DNA from: Bacteroidota bacterium | Lineage (GTDB): Bacteria > Bacteroidota > Ignavibacteria > Tepidaquicellales > Tepidaquicellaceae | DNA length: 64,000 nt | Direction of reading: 5' to 3' | Assembly: GCA_018266845.1 (NCBI GenBank) | Contig: JAFDZO010000006.1 | Location: 1,014-65,013, forward strand | Part shown: one piece after another, positions 1 through 10,563 of the stretch | Layout of the letters: each line of letters starts with the position of its first letter | Numbering within the stretch: the first letter of the stretch is position 1 | Position numbers and translations under genes: made by a program | The notes under the pieces: model-generated | The model's database searches: none | Told to the model about the DNA's origin: nothing | Seen by the model: only the letters and a program-made list of their open reading frames with translations

Positions 1-1334
1 TATTTATTCTTTAACTCTTTTATTCTCTGGTCTGCATCAACATACATTGTTCTGAATACATAATACTTCACTGCCTTCTCCTTGAAATAAACGTACTGGT
101 GATTTCCCTTCGTTTCTACTTCAGGCGCTTTTAGTCTTTTAGAAATATAAAATACCGGTCCCTTTGAATCCAACTTAATCAATACTGCTACAACAGCAAA
201 AATCGGTGTCAAAAATAATAAAGCGAAAAATGCCACAATTCTGTCAGTAGCATTTATTAAAAATAAATTGAACTTTGTTTTAAAAGGCACAAGCCTGTGC
301 GACTTCAGAACATTATCATCATCCACATACATTCCGAAATTTAACGGAACGCTAAGATGATAATTTTTATTTACAACGGAATCCTTTATCTCTACATCTT
401 TTCCTACATAAGTATTACTCATTATTACTGATTTGCTCAGCACTGCATTTTCATCAATGAATAGTTCCTTGCCGAGCACTAAAGGACCTTCAAGTTTTAC
501 TCCTTTAGCAATTTCAGTGTTTTCACCGATGATAATTGGCGGCTTAAAATTTTCTATCTGCAAGTCATCAAACTTTACGGAAGAATGAACATACATTCCC
601 TCCTTCAGCTTACTTGAATTTTTTGTATCCACAAGGTTTTCTTCGCAGAGTCTCATATTCAAATTCCAATATTCTTCAAGCGAATCTATATTATTCCATT
701 CATCTTCGGTTACAAAAACCGACACAGGGATATTTTTTTCTATTAATGCCGGAAGAACATCCTGCACAATGCTTAAGTGCGATTTATCAGCCGGCATGTG
801 CTGAAAAATCTCCGGCTCAAAAAAATACACTCCGCAATTGATAAAATCTTCAGTTATATTCTCAGCTTCATTGATGCCTTTAAGTTTATTCTCTTCGTCA
901 AGAGTAACTTTCCAGTCCTTGCTTTTCTTGCTTGCCTTTTTAACACAAATTGTAGCAACCGATTTATTTTCTTTATGAAAACTTAAAAGGTTGGCAAGAT
1001 TTATATTATGATAACTGTCTCCCGTCAAGACAAGAAATGTCTCGCTGAAAAAACTCTTTACTCTTTTTAAAGCTCCGGCAGTTCCGCAAAGATTTTTTTC
1101 AATTGAGTAGGAAATTTTCACTCCGTGCCTTGAGCCGTCTGAAAAATATTTATCAATTTGTTCGGGAAGGTAGTGAAGATTGATTTTAATATCCTTAAAA
1201 TCATGTCGGCTGCAAAGCTCTACAGAATACTCCATTACAGGCTTATTGCAGACAGGAAGCATTGGCTTTGGAATCGTAAGTGTCAGCGGTCTTAATCTTT
1301 CGCCAAATCCGGCGGCAAGTATCATCGCTTTCAT
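1..1334 (-). CDS. Sugar-phosphate nucleotidyltransferase fused to sugar transferase (partial)
   Basis: This is the N-terminal 444 residues of a protein running off the left edge; I translated it directly. It opens with MKAMILAAGFGERLRPLT and KPMLPV, the nucleotide-binding signature of NDP-sugar pyrophosphorylases (roughly residues 1-235). Residues 245-345 look like left-handed beta-helix hexapeptide repeats. From about residue 355 a new domain begins: a hydrophobic helix, then L-I-K-L-D-S-K-G-P-V-F and later F-R-T-M-Y-V-D-A, which is the start of a bacterial sugar transferase (polyprenyl-phosphate glycosylphosphotransferase, PF02397-like). Such transferases start lipid-linked glycan synthesis at the inner membrane. 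The ATG at 1334 abuts the TAG of the upstream HATPase gene, so translation is probably coupled. The nucleotide and sugar used cannot be told from the sequence. The fusion itself is seen directly because one frame stays open throughout; the catalytic C-terminus lies outside the window. Confidence 0.85.
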   Translation of the reverse strand, partial: MKAMILAAGFGERLRPLTLTIPKPMLPVCNKPVMEYSVELCSRHDFKDIKINLHYLPEQIDKYFSDGSRHGVKISYSIEKNLCGTAGALKRVKSFFSETFLVLTGDSYHNINLANLLSFHKENKSVATICVKKASKKSKDWKVTLDEENKLKGINEAENITEDFINCGVYFFEPEIFQHMPADKSHLSIVQDVLPALIEKNIPVSVFVTEDEWNNIDSLEEYWNLNMRLCEENLVDTKNSSKLKEGMYVHSSVKFDDLQIENFKPPIIIGENTEIAKGVKLEGPLVLGKELFIDENAVLSKSVIMSNTYVGKDVEIKDSVVNKNYHLSVPLNFGMYVDDDNVLKSHRLVPFKTKFNLFLINATDRIVAFFALLFLTPIFAVVAVLIKLDSKGPVFYISKRLKAPEVETKGNHQYVYFKEKAVKYYVFRTMYVDADQRIKELKNK

Positions 1335-1916
1335 CTATACATCATCTCCCTTAATATTTTTAATAATTGCAAACACGTCTTTACCGTTCTCTGTCCGGTT
1401 ATAGGTTACTTTATCCGATAAACATGCAATAAGATACAGACCGTAATGTTCCGGCACTTCCTTTTTTATCAAATTTTTATTTTCTGCTTTTTTGTGATGA
1501 AGCTCCATGCTGTATTTTCCGGTAACTCTGCTCAGGACAATATTTTCATCATCGCGGTAAACAACAAACTCGCTGTTCAGAATATTTTCATTGTAGGGCG
1601 GCGCATTTTTTTCCGCGTAGTTTCCGAATTCATCAACTGATTTAATCATAAAACCCTCGCCTGTTGTTTCAATTTCTATCTTCAGTTCTATACTGCTTAA
1701 AGTATATCTGAGTATAATATTGCTGCTTTGCGAGTGAGACACTGCATTTGAAAACAGCTCATAGTTGAGAATGCGTAAATCCTGTATAAATTTTTCCCTG
1801 TCTTCGTCTTTTTTAAATTTTGCTTTTGATTTGACTAAAATTTCAGCAGTATCATTTACAAAATGAATATAGTCAACGGAACTGTTTATGATTAATGAAA
1901 CACTTTCCTCTTTCAT
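1335..1916 (-). CDS. HATPase-domain serine kinase / anti-sigma-factor-like protein (RsbW/SpoIIAB type)
   Basis: 193 aa. The fold signature is a GHKL ATPase: an N box with E53, N57 and H61 in NYELFSNAVSHS, a G1-like ETTGEGF, and a G2-like EHYGLYLI near residue 157. In partner-switching systems this kinase phosphorylates a STAS antagonist and holds a sigma factor or other target. The STAS protein is encoded immediately upstream and a PP2C phosphatase two genes further up, so all three classical components are present. The gap to the STAS gene is 110 nt and no clear Shine-Dalgarno precedes the ATG. The stop abuts the start of the downstream nucleotidyltransferase gene. The G1 box lacks the usual Asp (D-x-G-x-G), so ATP binding may be altered. 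No sigma factor gene is seen in the window; the target is unknown. Confidence 0.75.
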   Translation of the reverse strand: MKEESVSLIINSSVDYIHFVNDTAEILVKSKAKFKKDEDREKFIQDLRILNYELFSNAVSHSQSSNIILRYTLSSIELKIEIETTGEGFMIKSVDEFGNYAEKNAPPYNENILNSEFVVYRDDENIVLSRVTGKYSMELHHKKAENKNLIKKEVPEHYGLYLIACLSDKVTYNRTENGKDVFAIIKNIKGDDV

Positions 1917-2026
1917 TAATGTTTTGATTGTGCTTTTGAATTAAAGAAATGAAAGATACATATTCTCCAGGGGGAACAACCGAGCGGCAGCAAAACATCC
2001 TGCTGATAAATATTTTAAACAAAAAC

Positions 2027-2365
2027 TTAGAAGCTGCTTACTGCATCTTCCTTTGCATCGAATATTTCAAAAACTTTATAAAGGCGTGTAAGCTCGAACA
2101 TAGCCCGTACAGGTGCCTGCAAACCGACAATCTTAATATCCCCTTTTACTGCCGTTACTTTCTTCAAGCCTGAAACTATTGCGCCGAGAAACGAGCTGTC
2201 AACAAATTCAACATCGGTCAGGTCAATGATAAGTTTTTTCTTTCCGTCTTTTTCAATTAAATCAAAAAGGTATTGTTTGAAGTCTTTTGCTGCATCGGCA
2301 GTTGCCCTGCGAAGCTTTATAACGAGAAATGTTATTCCGTTTTGGTCAATGGCTTCGTAATTCAT
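2027..2365 (-). CDS. STAS-domain anti-sigma factor antagonist (SpoIIAA/RsbV-like)
   Basis: 112 aa, the usual length for a single-domain STAS protein. The conserved phosphorylation loop is VEFVDSSFLGAI; by analogy with SpoIIAA the modified residue would be S58, at the same number as in B. subtilis. The phosphorylated form is expected to be released by the HATPase kinase encoded downstream and regenerated by the PP2C phosphatase encoded upstream. A strong Shine-Dalgarno (AAAGGAG, 2373-2379) lies 7 nt before the ATG. The gene is separated from the glycosyltransferase gene by 52 nt in the same direction. Assignment to the family is secure; that it pairs with these particular neighbours is inference from the operon. 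Confidence 0.85.
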   Translation of the reverse strand: MNYEAIDQNGITFLVIKLRRATADAAKDFKQYLFDLIEKDGKKKLIIDLTDVEFVDSSFLGAIVSGLKKVTAVKGDIKIVGLQAPVRAMFELTRLYKVFEIFDAKEDAVSSF

Positions 2366-2417
2366 TTTGTATCTCCTTTAAGGTTATAATATTATATATA
2401 TTGTATTTTTTTAAAAT

Positions 2418-3860
2418 TTATCTCTTTGCTCTTTCCCAGATTACCTTTTGCTCGCCCGTAATATAGCGTTTTAACCCGATATAGGCAGAGTAGTTCATAA
2501 CGAACAAAACATAGGGTATATTGAACAGTTTTACTTTCTTTTTTTGCTTTTCCAGTATAAAACCGAACAATGCAAATATATAAAAACTTATCTGAACTAA
2601 TAAAGTGAGAAAGTATAAATACGAAAATGAATTTATTAACAGATATATATTCAAAATCAATGCCAAAGGAATAATAAAAGGCACAACTGCCCACCTTAGA
2701 ACACGATGTGAAATATACTGAAAAGAGAGTATTCTGTATTTAAAAATGTTAAAAAGCGATTTCAAAATAACAATTGCCTGAAATCCGCCCGCTGCAATTC
2801 TCCTTCTTCGGATGTATTCTTCTTTCATATCTACTGTCGGCTCTTCCTCAGCGTATGCCTCCGGTTCGTAAATCACTCTGTATCCTTTTTCGGCAACCTT
2901 CATCGAAACGACAAAATCTTCTATCAAAGTATTCTGTGCAACTCCTTCGCCCCAGAGATTTTTTCTAATTGCGAAGATTTCCCCTGCTGCTCCTACGCAG
3001 GTCCACAACTTTGAATCAATTTTTTTGAGAAGCGATTCATACTTCCAATAAAGACCCTCGCCTTCCCCGCTTGTCGAGTGCTCGCTTTTTTTAACTCTCT
3101 TTTCGCCGGCAACGCAGCCGACCTGCTTATCTGCAAAATGTTTCGTGAGATTTATCAGCGCTTCTTTATTGAAATAAGAATTAGCGTCCGAGAAAACAAG
3201 TATTTCTCCGTTTGCCTTTTCTACTGTTCTGTTTACCTGAGAAATTTTTCCTTTTCTTTCAATGTCCTTCGTAATTTTTATATCAATTTCATCCTCGCTG
3301 CTCAATCTCTCAATATGCTTATCAATATTCTTTTTTCCTTCAAGTGAAATATCATCCGTCGTAAAAGATTCTCCCTCAAGATGCTGCTCAATTTCTGTTA
3401 ATACATTAGCGCTGCGAAGATTACCGCTGTTTTCATATTTACTGAACTTCAGGTATATTTCCTCATCCTTTGATGTCGTATTCTTTAAGTCAGGCTCAAT
3501 GAGAAAATTCTTATAAAACTCATCAATCGTTTCATCAACTTCTTTTGATGTATCATAAGCAATTGCAAAAACCACTTCAAGCTTTTCGCGCGGATAAATT
3601 AGCGCCTGAGTGTTTTCAATTTTTTCTTTGATTATACGCTGAGGTTCACCCGATGCAGATATTACAAAAGTTACAGCCGGATAGTATGATTCATTTTCCG
3701 GGACAATTCTTTCAGACTTAACGTAATTGTACGGCTTGGGTATCAGTTTCATAAGCGAAGGAACTTTTGAAATAAAAATTATCAAAATTCCATACCCGGC
3801 GTAAGAATAAAAAATTGTAAACAGGAAAACCCAGAATAATATTTCCGATGTAATATACAA
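2418..3860 (-). CDS. Family 2 membrane glycosyltransferase
   Basis: 480 aa. A transmembrane helix (about 6-30) precedes a GT2 catalytic domain: PAVTFVISASGEP (61-73), an acidic SDAN (D225) as the D-x-D equivalent, E314-D315 in LIEDFVVSMKVAEKGY, and an Arg-rich RRRRIAAGGFQ (351-361) in place of Q-x-x-R-W. At least two C-terminal helices follow (about 375-440). This layout is that of processive or polyprenyl-linked glycosyltransferases making surface polysaccharide. Residues about 112-195 form a charged insertion between the D103 region and the K-G-K-I-S-Q segment, which is longer than the usual spacing. The start is TTG at 3860, supported by an AAGGTG Shine-Dalgarno 8 nt upstream that overlaps the end of the preceding response-regulator gene. 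It is embedded among partner-switching genes, which suggests its product is controlled by them. Substrate unknown. Confidence 0.8.
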   Translation of the reverse strand: MYITSEILFWVFLFTIFYSYAGYGILIIFISKVPSLMKLIPKPYNYVKSERIVPENESYYPAVTFVISASGEPQRIIKEKIENTQALIYPREKLEVVFAIAYDTSKEVDETIDEFYKNFLIEPDLKNTTSKDEEIYLKFSKYENSGNLRSANVLTEIEQHLEGESFTTDDISLEGKKNIDKHIERLSSEDEIDIKITKDIERKGKISQVNRTVEKANGEILVFSDANSYFNKEALINLTKHFADKQVGCVAGEKRVKKSEHSTSGEGEGLYWKYESLLKKIDSKLWTCVGAAGEIFAIRKNLWGEGVAQNTLIEDFVVSMKVAEKGYRVIYEPEAYAEEEPTVDMKEEYIRRRRIAAGGFQAIVILKSLFNIFKYRILSFQYISHRVLRWAVVPFIIPLALILNIYLLINSFSYLYFLTLLVQISFYIFALFGFILEKQKKKVKLFNIPYVLFVMNYSAYIGLKRYITGEQKVIWERAKR

Positions 3861-3861
3861 A

Positions 3862-5421
3862 TCAATTGCACCTTATAGCTATCATGCTGACATCATCATC
3901 AAAAATGCCGCCCGTGAACTCAAGAAATTTTTCTTTTACATAATCGAATTGATTCGGCAGCGCAGCAGACTCTTCAATTGATAATACAAGCCGCTCCATG
4001 CCGTATTGCTCGCCGTTTTTATTTCGTGATTCTATTATTCCGTCAGTCAGCACAAACATAGAATCGTGATGCTTCAGGCTCATTGTAATCGTATCATAAT
4101 CTCCGTCCTGCCTTGCGCCGAGAAGCATTCCTTCAGACTGGTAAGGCATTACGTGTTTGCTGTCTTCATCGTAATAAAGTAAACCCAAATCTCCCGCCCC
4201 GGAGTATTGCACCTGCTTCGTTCTTCTGTTAACAATTATCAGTGAAACAGTCGTGAATATTTCCGAAATCTTCGCATCATCATAAATAGATTCGTTTACC
4301 TTCTTTAAAACTTCTTTAGCAGAAAAAACTTTCTGCTCTTTCAAAACAACTCTTATTGCGCTTCGCAGATAGCCGATGAATGAGAACGTAAAGAACCACG
4401 CGCCCCATTTCTTTCCCATAACGTCTCCAAGAATAACAACTAAATTATCTTCATCAAGCTCTATGTAATCTATGAAATCACCTCCGGGCATACCTTTGAA
4501 CGGAACGTGCCAGTGAATAATTTCAAAGCCGTCAAATGAAGGTGTGTTCTTCGGTACAACTTCCATACTGATTGAATCGGCAGCTTCCTGCAGTTCAAGC
4601 AAAGTGTTTTGTCTCTCTTTTCTTATAGTCTTTAGCACGTTGCCAACCTTTGCAGCAACAAGTCTCGGATTGGTAGTTTTGCTTATGAAGTCTTTTATAT
4701 CCAAGTCAAAACTTTCCATTATAACATTGTCCTGATCATTTGCGGTAAGAAAAATAAATGGAATCTGGCTCAGCCTGTTATCCTCAAGCAGCATTTTTCT
4801 GAATGAAAACCCGTCAACTTCCGGCATCATGTAATCGGATAAAATCAAATCGGGATTGTGCATTCTTGCCAAAGCAAATCCTTCCTGCGCATTATTTGCG
4901 ATTAAGCATTCATACCCTGCTCCGATGAAAGTAACGCTAAGAATTTTTAAAATAATCGGGTCATCATCTACGAGAAGAATCTGAAACGGCTTTTCTGCAA
5001 AAGTTTCTTCAAACTTTTTCCTGATTCCATAAACACGATAAATCTCAACCCTTTTCAAAATCGAATTTGTCTTCAAAAGCAAATCCTGAATGTTAACGGG
5101 CTTGGAAATAAAATCGTCCGCGCCTAAGTTAAGGGCTTTTATCTTATCTTCATTGGAAGTTTTCGCCGTGATAAATACGAATGGCAGCGCCTGATACCTT
5201 TCATCCTGTCTTACAAGTCCGCAAAACTCAAAGCCGTCCATATCATCCATCATTACGTCGCAGAAAACCAAGTCAATATTTTCTTTCTTAATTATCTTAA
5301 GACCGTTTTTGGAGGAGTCAGCATCAAACACTGTGTACCCCTCTTTTTCTAAATTATGACAGATTAGTTTTCTTGTAACGGCATCATCATCTATTACTAA
5401 TATTTGCCTGTTTTTCTTCAT
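3862..5421 (-). CDS. Dual-receiver PP2C-type serine phosphatase (RsbU/SpoIIE-like response regulator)
   Basis: 519 aa from ATG 5421. REC1 (about 5-120) has the acidic triplet IDDD and phospho-acceptor D55 in LVFCDVMM, with K in FISKPV. REC2 (about 147-262) has VDDDP, ILSDYMMPEVDGF and FISK. A helical linker leads to a PP2C/SpoIIE domain (about 300-519) with the metal-binding GGDF, GDVMGK, LTDGIIE and DDDVSMIAI motifs. Enzymes of this design dephosphorylate STAS antagonists in response to a two-component input. The STAS and HATPase partners are two and three genes downstream. A longer reading from TTG 5445 would overlap the barrel gene by 11 nt; I prefer the ATG because the REC domain begins directly after it, although neither start has a clear Shine-Dalgarno. 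No cognate histidine kinase is adjacent. Confidence 0.88.
   Translation of the reverse strand: MKKNRQILVIDDDAVTRKLICHNLEKEGYTVFDADSSKNGLKIIKKENIDLVFCDVMMDDMDGFEFCGLVRQDERYQALPFVFITAKTSNEDKIKALNLGADDFISKPVNIQDLLLKTNSILKRVEIYRVYGIRKKFEETFAEKPFQILLVDDDPIILKILSVTFIGAGYECLIANNAQEGFALARMHNPDLILSDYMMPEVDGFSFRKMLLEDNRLSQIPFIFLTANDQDNVIMESFDLDIKDFISKTTNPRLVAAKVGNVLKTIRKERQNTLLELQEAADSISMEVVPKNTPSFDGFEIIHWHVPFKGMPGGDFIDYIELDEDNLVVILGDVMGKKWGAWFFTFSFIGYLRSAIRVVLKEQKVFSAKEVLKKVNESIYDDAKISEIFTTVSLIIVNRRTKQVQYSGAGDLGLLYYDEDSKHVMPYQSEGMLLGARQDGDYDTITMSLKHHDSMFVLTDGIIESRNKNGEQYGMERLVLSIEESAALPNQFDYVKEKFLEFTGGIFDDDVSMIAIRCN
3869..3874 (-). promoter_or_regulatory. Shine-Dalgarno deciding the TTG start of the GT2 gene
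   Basis: AAGGTG on the minus strand ends 8 nt before TTG 3860. It lies inside the last codons of the REC-REC-PP2C gene (stop 3864-3862), so termination and re-initiation are close together. No in-frame ATG lies upstream before a stop. Confidence 0.55.
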
Positions 5422-5434
5422 TAAAAAAAATTTT

Positions 5435-6325
5435 CTAAAATTCAAGAATGAAACCGAACTTGCTTACATTACCCAAGTCTCCGTTTCTGCTATAGCTGAA
5501 ATCTAAATTTACATGAGAATATTTAATGCCGATTCCCGCAGAACCTGCATCCTGAATGCTGTTATATCCGCCCCTCAATTTAATCATATTTTTATAAATA
5601 TCATATTCACTCCCTATGGAAAATAATAGCTTTTTGTTTCCGGTTATAAAAATTTCCGGTGAAATTGTAAGCGAAGGAATAATCTTATATGCTGCGCCTA
5701 ATTTAAATTTGCTAATGTAAACATCTTCCCGCCCGTTCAATTTTATCTTCGCTCCGATTGCATCCTGTATCATTAATCCCATACTAAATTTATCATTAAT
5801 AGTGCTCAACAAAGCAACATCTAACCCATACCCCGTTGATTCAAATCCTGCAATTGAATGTCTTATAATTTTTGTATTCAAGCCTATCTGAAGATTATCC
5901 GTAACTTTACGCGAGAACGAAAATAATAATGCCATCTCGTTATCGGAAAATGTTTCGCCGGAAGGACCTGAAACGTTTTCTACATAGGGAATATCAGATA
6001 CAGATGAATAAATTACGCCAAGCCCTACAGTACCGAATTCAAAGCCCTTCGAGACTCCGAGATTTCCGTAATTTAAACCCGAAACTGCGCCGAATAGATT
6101 TGAATACATACCCATCACCTGTAATTGCGTATTCGTTGAGAGTCCTGCGGGATTATAATAGATTGCAGAAACATCGTTTGCGATTGCAGTGAAAGAATTG
6201 CCAAGAGAAGAGGCTCTTGCTCCGAAGCCGTTTTTCATAAACGCTCCCGGCTCGCCGCCCTCGCCGCTTTGCGCGAAAATTTTCGATGCGAATAATACTA
6301 ATGCTAAAAATAAAAATTTTCTCAT
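5435..6325 (-). CDS. PorV/PorQ-like outer-membrane beta-barrel protein
   Basis: 296 aa with a signal peptide (MRKFLFLALVLFASKIFAQ). The mature start GFGARASSLGNSFTAIANDV, followed by S-A-I-Y-Y-N-P-A-G-L, is the hallmark of the PorV/PorQ family, FadL-like 14-strand barrels of which PorV shuttles T9SS cargo to the attachment complex. The remaining sequence alternates polar and hydrophobic residues and ends in F-G-F-I-L-E-F, as expected for a barrel with a C-terminal aromatic residue. Its ATG overlaps the stop of the upstream T9SS cargo gene (ATGA, 6325-6322), so the two are translationally coupled. That pairing suggests a dedicated shuttle or accessory barrel for the cargo; this is inference. 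It could alternatively be a general porin of the same family. Confidence 0.8.
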   Translation of the reverse strand: MRKFLFLALVLFASKIFAQSGEGGEPGAFMKNGFGARASSLGNSFTAIANDVSAIYYNPAGLSTNTQLQVMGMYSNLFGAVSGLNYGNLGVSKGFEFGTVGLGVIYSSVSDIPYVENVSGPSGETFSDNEMALLFSFSRKVTDNLQIGLNTKIIRHSIAGFESTGYGLDVALLSTINDKFSMGLMIQDAIGAKIKLNGREDVYISKFKLGAAYKIIPSLTISPEIFITGNKKLLFSIGSEYDIYKNMIKLRGGYNSIQDAGSAGIGIKYSHVNLDFSYSRNGDLGNVSKFGFILEF

Positions 6326-9300
6326 CTTACTACTCCCATCTTTTGGCTTTTTGTGTATTCCGTTCCGCTTACATTCGCCTTTATTATATAGATGTAAGCC
6401 CCGTTTGCAACGGCTGTGCCTCTGTCATTTTTCAAATCCCATCTATAATCGTAGTAAAATCCGTTTCTCGTAAATTCTTTAAAAGTTACAGTCTTCACAA
6501 GCTGACCGCCAATATCAAAAATCTGGAGCTTAATATCCTGAGTTCCTATGGGAAGCTCTGCTCTTATCAATGTTGTTGATTCTTTAACGGGATTAGGGTA
6601 ATTAAAAATCTGTCCCAATTGATTTCCGGCAGGATTAACATTGTTTGCAATTCCGTCAAACTTTGTATTTGTTAAATCCTTACCGAAATACTGCCATTGA
6701 ATTATTCCGCTTGAAACGGAATTAGGAAGTTCATAGGTCTTAATCGTTTCATCAAAGGAAGCAATGGTAACATCAAATTTTCCGTTGCCGTCTAAATCTC
6801 CTATGGCGGGAGAAGAAATAATCCAGCCGCTCGCAAGGCTGAAAAGATTTGTGGAAGCCAAATCCATTACTCCGTCTTTGTTTATTACAAACACTGCTCC
6901 GTTCATTCCGCAGAAAATTGCTTCGGGAAATCCGTCGCCGTCAACATCTGCTGCAACCGGACTGGAATTTATTTCAGTGTTTGTCTGCATGTTCCAGATT
7001 GTAGAAAATGACGCATCAGGTGTTACAGATAAAATATTTCCGTCAGTACCGCCAATCAAAATCTCCTTAGTGGAATCTCTGTTCATATCGGCAACTATGG
7101 GAGAGGAGATGAACCCTTGTGAAAGCTGCCGCTTTGCGGTAATAGTCCCATTCGGTTTTATTAGATATAAATATCCTCCGCCTGAAGCAGCCACAATTTG
7201 AAACTCATTTCCGTTGAGTTTAGAAATCACCGGTGAAGAAAAAATCATGTTATCCAGCTTAACAGGAAATCCTGACTGTATGCTGCCATCTGCGCGCACA
7301 ACATTAATTGTGCTATCGGCAGTGCCGACTACAATTTCCTTCGAGCCGTCATTATCTATATCACCCACAGCCGGCGATGAGAGAATTACAAGGTTTCCGT
7401 AGGAATCCGCCGTGCTCTGAACTTTTACAGGAAAGCCGTTTTTCAACTGCCCGTCAAATCCCAGCACAAACACATTTCCACTTCCTGAAAAAGCGACTAT
7501 CTCTTTGTTTCCGTCATTATATATATCAGCAATTACAGGAGAAGATTTTACAGGACCACCTGTATAGAAAGGAAATCCTTTTAATAAGTTTCCGTTGTTA
7601 TCTATAGCAAAAATATTTCCGTCGTCAGAACCAAATACAATCACTTTCTTTCCGCCCTGAATTGAATCAACTGCAGCAGTAGAGCGGATTATGCCATCAG
7701 TCGGGAAAGGAAAACCGGGCATAAATTCTCCGTTGGACTTTAACGCATACATTCTCTTATCCATTGCGCCGATAATCACTTCCTTCTTTCCGTCTCCGTC
7801 TAAATCATAGTATTTCGGCGATGCAAAAAATTTTGAAATAGAATCCTGAAACAGTCTTTTACCAATGCCTTTGTTTCCTTCAAACCTATCTTGAGTATAA
7901 GAAACATTGGAATGAGAATCCGGGGTAACAATTCTCTTGTTCCATACTTTTGTTGTATCAGGAAAATTATACCAATCGGTGTTTGTAGTCTTATTTGATG
8001 TTATGTAAGAAGTAAATCTCGGATAAGCTTCCCATATCGGATAAGCAGGTCCCTCAAGGGGCCACCTGAAGTTATTCGGATTTTGATAACCCAAATCAAG
8101 ATAATATCCATAAAGAGGATTTCCGACAAGCGCCGCGTTATCAAGATTCTGCGTATTCCCGGATGGACCGGCTATAGAAGCTATATGTATTTCACCTCCG
8201 ACCGATGTAATAATAAAAGGATCTGATGACGATGTCGTGAACCCGCTTAAAGGATTGGAAGTATTGTTAACCGTAATTTCCAGTTTTGCCTTATACCCCT
8301 TTTTTACGCCTGACTGCAAAAGACTTGTATTGGTACTGAACAGTCCTCCGGCAGGCGGAAGCGCTGCCTTGCTTGAAGGAAATATTGTAGTTGTAAATGC
8401 TCCGCTGTTCGATTGATTAGAATAACTCAACGCGGAAATTGTATTTCCAAGCGTATCATAAACAGAAAGAGAAACCGTTGTGCTGCCTGTTAAGGAAATC
8501 TTGTGCTTGAATGTATGGTCGTATGATGAGCCTCTTGCAAGCGCTTCGTAATCATAGGTAATTTTCGTTATGTTCTGGCTGTTATCGGTTACAATTGTCT
8601 GCGTCATTGAGGCAACAAAATCATTCACATCCCAGTCGTTCCACGCGCTGTTTTTTATATCTTCAAATGCCAGCACATAATTGTTTACAACGGTATATGG
8701 ATTATTATTTTTAATTTTAATGGAAGACGAATTTTGCGCAGAGAGAGTATCACTAAGAGCATTTCCTTTCACTAAAGTAGAAATACTTAATTCAGTTCCG
8801 TTAGCCACGGGATTTCCCGTATAATAATTAGACTCCGCCTTACCGGTTATTTTTATTTTCAAAGTATCGGAGGATGAAAGGCTGAATGAACTTAAACTCA
8901 CCGTACTCTGAGCATTTCCTGCTGAATATGTTCCCGACCCAAGATTTCCCTGAGTATTGCTAACAAAGCTTGATGATTGGTAAAGAATGCCATCGGGTAT
9001 TGTTACAGTTACATTAGCTCCGCTTAATGCTGCGCCTGTAGGGTTTGTAACATAAGCAAAATATGAACAGGTATCACCCGATGTAACTTCCGGCTTGCTG
9101 AAATTATTTGTAACAGATAAGCTTTGCGCCGTTCCGTCATTTGCAAAACACATCCAGTCGCCTGACCAGTTACTTACAGCAGCAGTAACCGGCTGAGTGG
9201 AAGTAAGTCGCATGTAAGGAATTGTTGAAGAGTTTCCGCTTAATTGATTATACTTCGTTTTGTTTACCTTAAAATCATAAAATTTTCCTGCAGAAAGATT

Positions 9301-10563
9301 TACAGTTGTGTCTATAATTCCTGCGAGATTATTATCCTGAATTCTTACACTTGTATTTGCGTAGCTCGCATAAATGAAAAGATGAGTGAAAAGCCCGTCG
9401 CTGCTAAGCTGGGAATATTTTAATCCTGTTACAGGGTCAGTGCAGTTAGAGATATTATTCGGATACGGAAGATAAACAACTAAATTTTTTCCCGCCATAT
9501 TTCCCCTATCGGAAGCTGCATAGGAATAAATATCGGCTGTAGTAGCGCCTGATGAGCTTTGCAGATAGTTTCCTTCAAAAATTGAAACCTTGCCGCCGTT
9601 TGTATATGCGCGGAATTTATCTTCGTTCTGATTTCCGTTATCCAGAAAATTTCCGACCTGAAATTTATTTAATGTGTAGCTCTGAAGCTGCACCCAGTTG
9701 CTTCCGTTGTTCAGCCATTCTACTTTTAATGTAACGTTGTCTGAATATGAAACAATCCGAAGCTCCTGCTCTTTTTTATAATCGGAAGGAATATTGAAAT
9801 AAAAAAGCGAATCCAATGTGCTTCCCGTTCTACCCGGAACGTAAGCGCCTGCTTCACGAGAGTTAGTGTATAATGAACCGTACTGAACGCTGACGGGCTT
9901 GGATGTTGTTATCATATATGTCTTGCCGTTGTTCAGTAAATTTCTCCCGGCAGAACTTGTGTTAATCAAATCCTGATTTATATTCAGCATGGTATTGAGC
10001 ACAATATTATTTGCGGGATTGGGCTTAACTGACGTTAAGCCGGTAGTGTTTGTTCCCGAAACTGAAATATCATTTATCTTTACGCTTGTACTATCGAAAT
10101 AAGTAAAGACATTAATATCTCTGTTTGAAAAAGGCGATGTGTTTACATAAACAAAAAATGCGCTGCCGGTCATAGTCCCGTTATCTGAAGGAAGAAAATC
10201 ATGCTCCCAGTCAGAATCAACCGATTGATAGACAATAACGGGTTTATTGGCGGTAACGGTAAAGTAATCGCCGTCCCACTTTCCGCCTGCGTCATCATTG
10301 ACGGATTTATCTTTAATATAACAGATATAACTCTGCCCTTTCATTAAAATGCCCGACCACGAATCATCCGTATCGCCGTCGCTTCCGTCATCCGTAAGGA
10401 CAACGGAAGTCGAATCGGAAAAAGCAGTTACAACTAAACAAACAAATCTGTTGTTGTTTTCATTAACAGGCGGAACATACATCTGAAATTTTGTCCCTGC
10501 CCCTCCGCAAAAAGCTGCTGTGGAAGTGATAAATAACAGGAAGAATATTAAATATTTTTTCAT
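6322..10563 (-). CDS. T9SS cargo: LruC-like domain plus FG-GAP propeller surface protein
   Basis: 1413 aa. The protein has a signal peptide and an N-terminal region (about 20-560) of beta-rich repeats. About 625-830 resembles the LruC/DUF4842 domain (FEDIKNSAWNDWDVNDF, then A-L-A-R-G-S-S-Y and L-E-I-T-V-N-N). Residues about 915-1290 carry FG-GAP-type propeller blades with Ca-binding loops such as DLDGDGKKEVIIG, DIDNDGSKEIVVG and DVDGDGFPEAI. A C-terminal sorting domain begins at N-Y-P-N-P-V-K (about 1325) and ends K-M-G-V-V-R. It should be secreted through the outer membrane and anchored at the surface. It is the first gene of the operon with the PorV-like barrel and the partner-switching/glycosyltransferase genes, and no terminator separates them. 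The CTD is more divergent than those elsewhere in the window. Likely an adhesin or matrix protein; the ligand is unknown. Confidence 0.82.
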   Translation of the reverse strand: MKKYLIFFLLFITSTAAFCGGAGTKFQMYVPPVNENNNRFVCLVVTAFSDSTSVVLTDDGSDGDTDDSWSGILMKGQSYICYIKDKSVNDDAGGKWDGDYFTVTANKPVIVYQSVDSDWEHDFLPSDNGTMTGSAFFVYVNTSPFSNRDINVFTYFDSTSVKINDISVSGTNTTGLTSVKPNPANNIVLNTMLNINQDLINTSSAGRNLLNNGKTYMITTSKPVSVQYGSLYTNSREAGAYVPGRTGSTLDSLFYFNIPSDYKKEQELRIVSYSDNVTLKVEWLNNGSNWVQLQSYTLNKFQVGNFLDNGNQNEDKFRAYTNGGKVSIFEGNYLQSSSGATTADIYSYAASDRGNMAGKNLVVYLPYPNNISNCTDPVTGLKYSQLSSDGLFTHLFIYASYANTSVRIQDNNLAGIIDTTVNLSAGKFYDFKVNKTKYNQLSGNSSTIPYMRLTSTQPVTAAVSNWSGDWMCFANDGTAQSLSVTNNFSKPEVTSGDTCSYFAYVTNPTGAALSGANVTVTIPDGILYQSSSFVSNTQGNLGSGTYSAGNAQSTVSLSSFSLSSSDTLKIKITGKAESNYYTGNPVANGTELSISTLVKGNALSDTLSAQNSSSIKIKNNNPYTVVNNYVLAFEDIKNSAWNDWDVNDFVASMTQTIVTDNSQNITKITYDYEALARGSSYDHTFKHKISLTGSTTVSLSVYDTLGNTISALSYSNQSNSGAFTTTIFPSSKAALPPAGGLFSTNTSLLQSGVKKGYKAKLEITVNNTSNPLSGFTTSSSDPFIITSVGGEIHIASIAGPSGNTQNLDNAALVGNPLYGYYLDLGYQNPNNFRWPLEGPAYPIWEAYPRFTSYITSNKTTNTDWYNFPDTTKVWNKRIVTPDSHSNVSYTQDRFEGNKGIGKRLFQDSISKFFASPKYYDLDGDGKKEVIIGAMDKRMYALKSNGEFMPGFPFPTDGIIRSTAAVDSIQGGKKVIVFGSDDGNIFAIDNNGNLLKGFPFYTGGPVKSSPVIADIYNDGNKEIVAFSGSGNVFVLGFDGQLKNGFPVKVQSTADSYGNLVILSSPAVGDIDNDGSKEIVVGTADSTINVVRADGSIQSGFPVKLDNMIFSSPVISKLNGNEFQIVAASGGGYLYLIKPNGTITAKRQLSQGFISSPIVADMNRDSTKEILIGGTDGNILSVTPDASFSTIWNMQTNTEINSSPVAADVDGDGFPEAIFCGMNGAVFVINKDGVMDLASTNLFSLASGWIISSPAIGDLDGNGKFDVTIASFDETIKTYELPNSVSSGIIQWQYFGKDLTNTKFDGIANNVNPAGNQLGQIFNYPNPVKESTTLIRAELPIGTQDIKLQIFDIGGQLVKTVTFKEFTRNGFYYDYRWDLKNDRGTAVANGAYIYIIKANVSGTEYTKSQKMGVVR

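Follow-up and report, generated by a model that had tools for sequence, protein, structure and literature searches.

Gene content of the locus

The stretch of DNA analysed here (the window, 64,000 nucleotides; G000:C43:1014-65013, with G000 as the window genome) carries at its beginning five minus-strand genes in which the parts of a putative partner-switching module alternate with genes of glycan synthesis. From position 5421 downward, the order is a REC-REC-PP2C phosphatase, a glycosyltransferase of family 2 (GT2), a STAS protein, an HATPase, and a fusion of a nucleotidyltransferase with a phosphoglycosyltransferase (PGT). A preliminary description had placed the five genes at these positions, and the Pfam domains agree with it. 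The features are listed below, with confidence values of AlphaFold2 (AF2) models given as predicted local distance difference test (pLDDT).

3862..5421, minus strand: REC-REC-PP2C (SpoIIE/RsbU-type) phosphatase, 519 aa; Pfam Response_reg twice and SpoIIE, invariant alignment columns
2418..3860, minus strand: membrane GT2 glycosyltransferase, 480 aa, TTG start; Pfam Glyco_trans_2_3, structure match
3282..3527, minus strand: insert of the GT2, ~73 net residues (residues ~112-193); alignment, pLDDT 37-62
2027..2365, minus strand: single-domain STAS (RsbV/SpoIIAA-like) antagonist, 112 aa; Pfam STAS, TIGR00377
2192..2194, minus strand: codon of STAS Ser58, the expected phosphorylation site, motif DSSFLG; S57 and S58 invariant
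1335..1916, minus strand: RsbW/SpoIIAB-fold HATPase, 193 aa; AF2 model, structure matches, residue tally
1665..1667, minus strand: codon of HATPase Thr84, where GHKL G1 boxes have the Asp that contacts adenine
1..1334, minus strand: nucleotidyltransferase - left-handed beta helix - PGT (Bac_transf) fusion; Pfam; cut by the window edge

The genes are closely spaced, with 1 nt between the PP2C stop and the GT2 start and 0 nt at the HATPase/fusion junction, where the fusion ATG follows directly; in relatives, the latter is mostly a 4-nt overlap. Such spacing gives no support to the fixed stoichiometry that had been read from coupled junctions. The gap between STAS and HATPase showed no structured-RNA signal (folding z-score +0.81), Rfam families in the window were limited to one tRNA, and the plasmid collection contained no DNA similar to the GT2-STAS-HATPase stretch.

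Conservation in Ignavibacteria and other lineages

The window HATPase, used as a query, matched 8 of the 44 genomes of the order, and an alignment of the family retrieved full-length members from 16 of the 391 genomes searched in the class, next to numerous weaker matches that were mostly short and fell on larger kinases. A single-sequence HATPase query of genome contigs returned no match. The search succeeded with an alignment of the PP2C, which yielded 70 loci in named genomes, and most of the Ignavibacteria loci in this set have the gene order of the window. According to the annotated neighbourhoods, the full PP2C-GT2-STAS-HATPase-fusion order is present in seven genomes (G324, G316, G334, G328, G329, G559 and G461), and six further Ignavibacteria genomes carry cut or variant forms. 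In G335, the order is cut at a contig end and the PP2C lies at another contig end, G574 keeps the order, its PP2C having a single REC domain, and G586 (L226) and G421 (L227) have PP2C-GT2-STAS-fusion without the HATPase. Since the order persists although the proteins of the genomes compared often share only 28-70% identity, its conservation is far beyond chance. Conserved gene order in relatives had been set beforehand as the test on which the proposal of a glycan-linked module could fail, and the proposal withstood it.

A second arrangement was found at approximately 43 loci of Sphingobacteriaceae, with Mucilaginibacter, Pedobacter, Arcticibacter and Desertivirga among the carriers. Here, the GT2 and a second GT2 are divergent from an operon encoding a ~180-aa membrane protein, REC-PP2C, STAS and HATPase. 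A GT2 search at E <= 1e-30 gave one match per genome, with the PP2C as neighbour, in 8 of 8 Sphingobacteriaceae genomes. The ~180-aa membrane protein (L048:9439-9981 and orthologues) is the conserved first gene of this operon and has only a weak DUF2207_C match below the cut-off. The third arrangement, found in f54 (L223 and L224), starts with a histidine kinase (HK) and reads HK-REC-NtrC-GT2-STAS-fusion-PP2C without HATPase; L225 shows its STAS-fusion-PP2C end. In addition, a metagenome-assembled genome of Flavobacteriaceae (L084:7063-11563) has a STAS-HATPase-REC-PP2C set that diverges from a PGT, whose N-terminus carries a REC-like domain, and from a lone REC; the HATPase of this locus possesses a standard DxGxG box. 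Relatedness among the carrier genomes means that single loci do not count as independent events, and the independent points are the three arrangements, i.e., the operon (f1, g209), the divergent form (Sphingobacteriaceae) and f54. Across the glycan operons, STAS and PP2C are nearly constant and the HATPase is variable.

Pairs of STAS and HATPase of the same family also occur at loci that have neither PP2C nor glycan genes (L031, L132 and L137). They lie next but one to a protein of ~759 aa, for which a Sigma70 region 4 match was recorded in L132 (26.7 bits, cut-off 24.1).

Polysaccharide operon context

Pfam assigns NTP_transferase (128.6 bits) and Bac_transf domains to the fusion. Immediately outside the window, a run of approximately 170 N lies inside this gene (window 1-2; L006:844-1013), and the contig continues with the remaining PGT domain and then rmlA. 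In relatives, the fusion is ~600 aa long, and the intact homologue L024 has 598 aa. The genus sister G324 shows the same order followed by rmlA, rmlC, a carbohydrate phosphorylase and a UDP-sugar dehydrogenase, and in G316 the operon genes are followed by an OEP-type outer-membrane protein and a Wzz/ParA-like protein of 759 aa. These neighbours indicate that the window genes are part of a polysaccharide operon. Upstream of the PP2C, the window continues with a PorV-family gene (5435-6325) and a LruC-domain protein of the type IX secretion system (T9SS) type (6322-10563). A second HATPase-PGT neighbourhood exists in the window genome, where a canonical RsbW-like HATPase (DEGEGF) lies directly upstream of a WbaP-type PGT (L169:8111-10092; G000:C25).

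Phosphatase and STAS protein

The two constant regulators carry the signature residues of a partner switch. The phosphatase, for which ATG 5421 is the best start, comprises two Response_reg domains and a SpoIIE domain (111.2 bits). The phospho-acceptor Asp/Lys pairs of both REC domains (D55/K107 and D196/K248) are invariant in the PP2C alignment, and so are the columns of the metal residues D315, D318, D333, D460, D509 and D510. The STAS protein matches Pfam STAS with 56.6 bits and passes the NCBIfam anti-anti-sigma superfamily TIGR00377 (60.4 bits, cut-off 53.45). S58 is the second Ser of DSSF, and DSS is invariant in nine homologues. The module has both a SpoIIE-type PP2C with its metal-binding Asp residues and a STAS protein with a conserved phosphorylatable Ser.

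The altered HATPase

The HATPase passes Pfam HATPase_c_2 narrowly (28.9 bits, cut-off 27.4) and reaches only 26.6 with the RsbW family profile, whose cut-off is 145. Its AF2 model (pLDDT 89) matches SpoIIAB (Z 13.8, root-mean-square deviation 2.9-3.5 over 127-131 residues), RsbW (Z 13.7, 1.5 over 104) and SiaB (Z 10.9), and the fold is therefore predicted to be of the RsbW/SpoIIAB type. Of the GHKL motif set (ExxxN, DxGxG, GxG), only ExxxN is intact in the window protein: E53 and N57 of the N-box are kept, the G1 Asp is replaced by T84, the G2 box reads E156-H-Y-G159, and a long conserved hairpin region takes the position of the ATP lid. In GHKL proteins, the G1 Asp contacts adenine.

Residues were tallied in an alignment of 60 members (17 Ignavibacteria and 43 Sphingobacteriaceae), to which one Flavobacteriaceae sequence was added. 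All 60 members keep the Glu and Asn of the N-box. At the G1 Asp position, every one of the 17 Ignavibacteria carries T, L, M, S or F, and every one of the 43 Sphingobacteriaceae D or E. The second G1 Gly is present in 15/17 Ignavibacteria and missing from all 43 Sphingobacteriaceae. In nearly all members, the G2 box is EH[FY]G, and its first Gly is replaced in both lineages. Judging from these residues, we infer a nucleotide site that is under selection but altered and that possibly does not use ATP in Ignavibacteria. The HATPase is furthermore absent from the glycan operon in three variants (L223/L224, L226 and L227). The preliminary description had cast it as a fixed, classical kinase, a role that does not fit its absence from the operons of several lineages or the loss of the G1 Asp. 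With an optional HATPase of altered nucleotide site, STAS and PP2C remain as the constant regulators.

One sub-question is compatible with any of the outputs discussed below, namely whether the HATPase is a partner that only binds or responds to a different nucleotide, S58 being phosphorylated by another kinase or never. We regard this as a tentative possibility that falls somewhat short of probable. The altered G1 and G2 boxes and the operons without HATPase speak for it, as does L136:9185-10114 (G421), in which a STAS domain and this HATPase family are fused in one protein, an architecture that alters how partner switching could work there. However, the invariant N-box would be expected if metal-nucleotide were still bound, and the acidic G1 residue of all 43 Sphingobacteriaceae also speaks against this possibility. 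Non-standard G1 boxes are not confined to the glycan locus within the window genome. Another RsbW-like gene (L141) has one, which calls for caution in reading the HATPase, and so does the HATPase of a separate STAS-HATPase-GAF-PP2C set with no glycan genes beside it (L170:6150-8740; G000:C12).

The membrane glycosyltransferase

The GT2 possesses the core motifs of a GT-A domain (F223-S-D225-A-N227, E314-D315 and R351xxR354) followed by C-terminal membrane helices. Its AF2 model (pLDDT 74.7) matches PcManGT (6yv7) with Z 33.6 and both hyaluronan synthase (HAS) and the cellulose synthase BcsA with Z 22-24, which is consistent with a HAS/cellulose synthase-like enzyme. The processive Q(Q/R)xRW motif was not found; the window GT2 reads RRRRIAAGG, without Trp. 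No PilZ domain was reported by Pfam for this protein. In the Ignavibacteria GT2s, the insert, predicted with a low-confidence fold, follows the nucleotide-binding strand of the GT-A domain, and according to the alignment it is absent from the Sphingobacteriaceae and f54 GT2s. A role of the insert as a dock for the HATPase is not favoured, as L226 and L227 carry it without HATPase. In the GT2 tree, the Ignavibacteria, Sphingobacteriaceae and f54 enzymes form separate groups, and GT2 relatives in f10 and f11 have no PP2C of this family nearby.

Output of the module

No sigma factor of the SigB/F/G kind exceeded the TIGR02980 cut-off of 234 in the window genome, the best score (114.6 bits) belonging to the primary sigma factor. 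The earlier remark had been that no sigma factor is seen in the operon; an output through a sigma factor of the SigB/F/G kind was rejected for the window genome. Similarly, no GGDEF protein was detected in the window genome, in seven f1 relatives with the system or in four Sphingobacteriaceae, while control genomes gave matches, which rules out cyclic di-GMP (c-di-GMP) as the output in these genomes; single GGDEF matches were found in g209, g257 and f54. The f1 genomes tested gave no NtrC-linked STAS paralogue, and the glycan STAS proteins were their only strong matches; the f1 and Sphingobacteriaceae loci contain no NtrC or sigma gene. Together with the precedents of SiaC-SiaD (PMC8457831) and HsbA-HsbD (PMC6482189), in which a STAS-type protein acts on an enzyme, these absences point to a STAS protein that acts on the GT2 or, as second candidate, on the fusion.

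The reading we favour, with about even confidence, is a partner-switch module with surface- or exopolysaccharide synthesis as its output instead of a sigma factor or c-di-GMP, with STAS as the likely effector and the GT2 as the likeliest target. It builds directly on the observed gene content and linkage, the conserved residues of PP2C, REC and STAS, the missing SigB/F/G and GGDEF proteins and the variability of the HATPase. That the module regulates glycan synthesis is likely, and either STAS or the HATPase may bind the GT2 or fusion protein. In this scheme, phosphotransfer onto both REC domains would set the phosphatase activity of the PP2C, which, as in other members of its family, would dephosphorylate S58 of STAS. 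STAS would then bind one of the membrane enzymes for glycan synthesis encoded in the operon, most probably the GT2 and otherwise the fusion, and alter its activity. Where present, the HATPase of predicted RsbW fold may oppose this by sequestering STAS, by phosphorylating it via the altered nucleotide site, or both. The phospho-switch on a glycan enzyme that was originally proposed thus stands with regard to the conserved link to glycan genes and the missing SigB/F/G, but the role of the HATPase and the stoichiometry were overstated. A more specific version appears speculative and on the whole unlikely: control of polysaccharide synthesis in Bacteroidota free of c-di-GMP, in which a PP2C driven by two-component signals sets STAS, STAS directly binds and gates a GT2 of HAS/cellulose synthase fold, and the RsbW-fold partner of the Ignavibacteria, lacking adenine recognition, is a sequestering protein or a sensor of a different nucleotide and not an ATP kinase.

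Several observations weigh against glycan synthesis as the output. L028/L034 have PP2C-STAS-HATPase without GT2, followed by a sugar epimerase, L037 has PP2C-GT2 with neither STAS nor HATPase beside it, and co-location may reflect co-expression only. Moreover, an operon of HK, NtrC (sigma54 activator), STAS (with a DST motif) and REC-PP2C is widespread in the class (L229-L240, L242), without RsbW-type HATPase or glycan genes. Since such related PP2C-STAS pairs adjoin HK and NtrC in many relatives, members of the wider family may have a transcriptional output. Transferred to the window, the HATPase or STAS would act on a primary or extracytoplasmic function (ECF) sigma factor or on a sigma54 activator elsewhere, and the operon would be an autoregulated target. 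The genome offers 15 sigma70-region-2 matches, mostly ECF, and HsbR binds RpoS in P. aeruginosa (PMC6482189). HK/NtrC and glycan genes also share one f54 locus, and in the STAS tree f54 falls with the NtrC-linked set (100/100), outside of which the other glycan-linked STAS proteins remain, with bootstrap values that are not fully settled. However, the lack of SigB/F/G, of an NtrC-linked paralogue in f1 and of any NtrC or sigma gene at the f1 and Sphingobacteriaceae loci, as well as a single-copy GT2 that always lies beside the PP2C in the eight Sphingobacteriaceae genomes tested, make this explanation rather improbable for the window. That the module sits in an exopolysaccharide operon only to be expressed at the right time, while serving a different process (T9SS or motility, for example), is the least probable explanation and quite doubtful: the lineage-dependent upstream neighbours of the PP2C (PorV/LruC in the window genus, E1 dehydrogenase in others) and the solitary STAS-HATPase pairs of L031, L132 and L137 agree with it, but the same GT2 family accompanies the module in three arrangements of distant lineages.

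With regards to the favoured glycan output, the pairing of the switch with a single-copy membrane GT2 in genomes without GGDEF (and, for the window genome, without SigB/F/G) reduces the list of candidate STAS targets to two enzymes. If true, it would explain how a BcsA/HAS-like synthase is switched on and off in bacteria without c-di-GMP, and Pedobacter and Mucilaginibacter provide cultured carriers.

Comparison with known systems

Literature searches on STAS/PP2C together with glycosyltransferases or in Bacteroidetes, which covered few subscription papers, gave no description of the arrangement. In its parts, the module resembles RsbU/RsbV/RsbW and SpoIIE/SpoIIAA/SpoIIAB of the B. subtilis sigma-B and sigma-F systems, i.e., a PP2C, a Ser-bearing STAS and an RsbW-fold HATPase. 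Unlike these, it occurs in a genome without SigB/F/G, its HATPase lacks the G1 Asp and stays below the RsbW cut-off, its PP2C carries two REC domains, and glycan enzymes are interleaved. The window GT2 in turn shares the GT-A domain and membrane helices with hyaluronan and cellulose synthase-fold enzymes and PcManGT, and differs by the missing Trp of the QxxRW-like motif, the ~73-residue insert and the lack of a PilZ domain in the Pfam result.

SiaABCD and HsbRAD of P. aeruginosa and BgrSTUWV of S. meliloti combine a partner switch with an enzyme output and control biofilm or polysaccharide (PMC8457831, PMC6482189). The structural match of SiaB to the window HATPase is a further likeness; however, the enzyme of all three systems is a diguanylate cyclase, and the window genome, the seven f1 relatives with the system and four Sphingobacteriaceae have no GGDEF protein. 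Polysaccharide control by PP2C/kinase and STAS is also known from SypE/SypA (Vibrio fischeri syp) and HmpUVW (Nostoc), where STAS is active when unphosphorylated and the output target is unknown (PMC8256260, PMC4517449). The enzyme outputs known so far are makers of c-di-GMP, and the polysaccharide-linked switches (SypA, HmpV) have no assigned target. SypE is a fusion of kinase, REC and phosphatase, whereas the parts in the window are separate and conserved beside one GT2, so that, unlike for SypE/SypA, a candidate target can be named.

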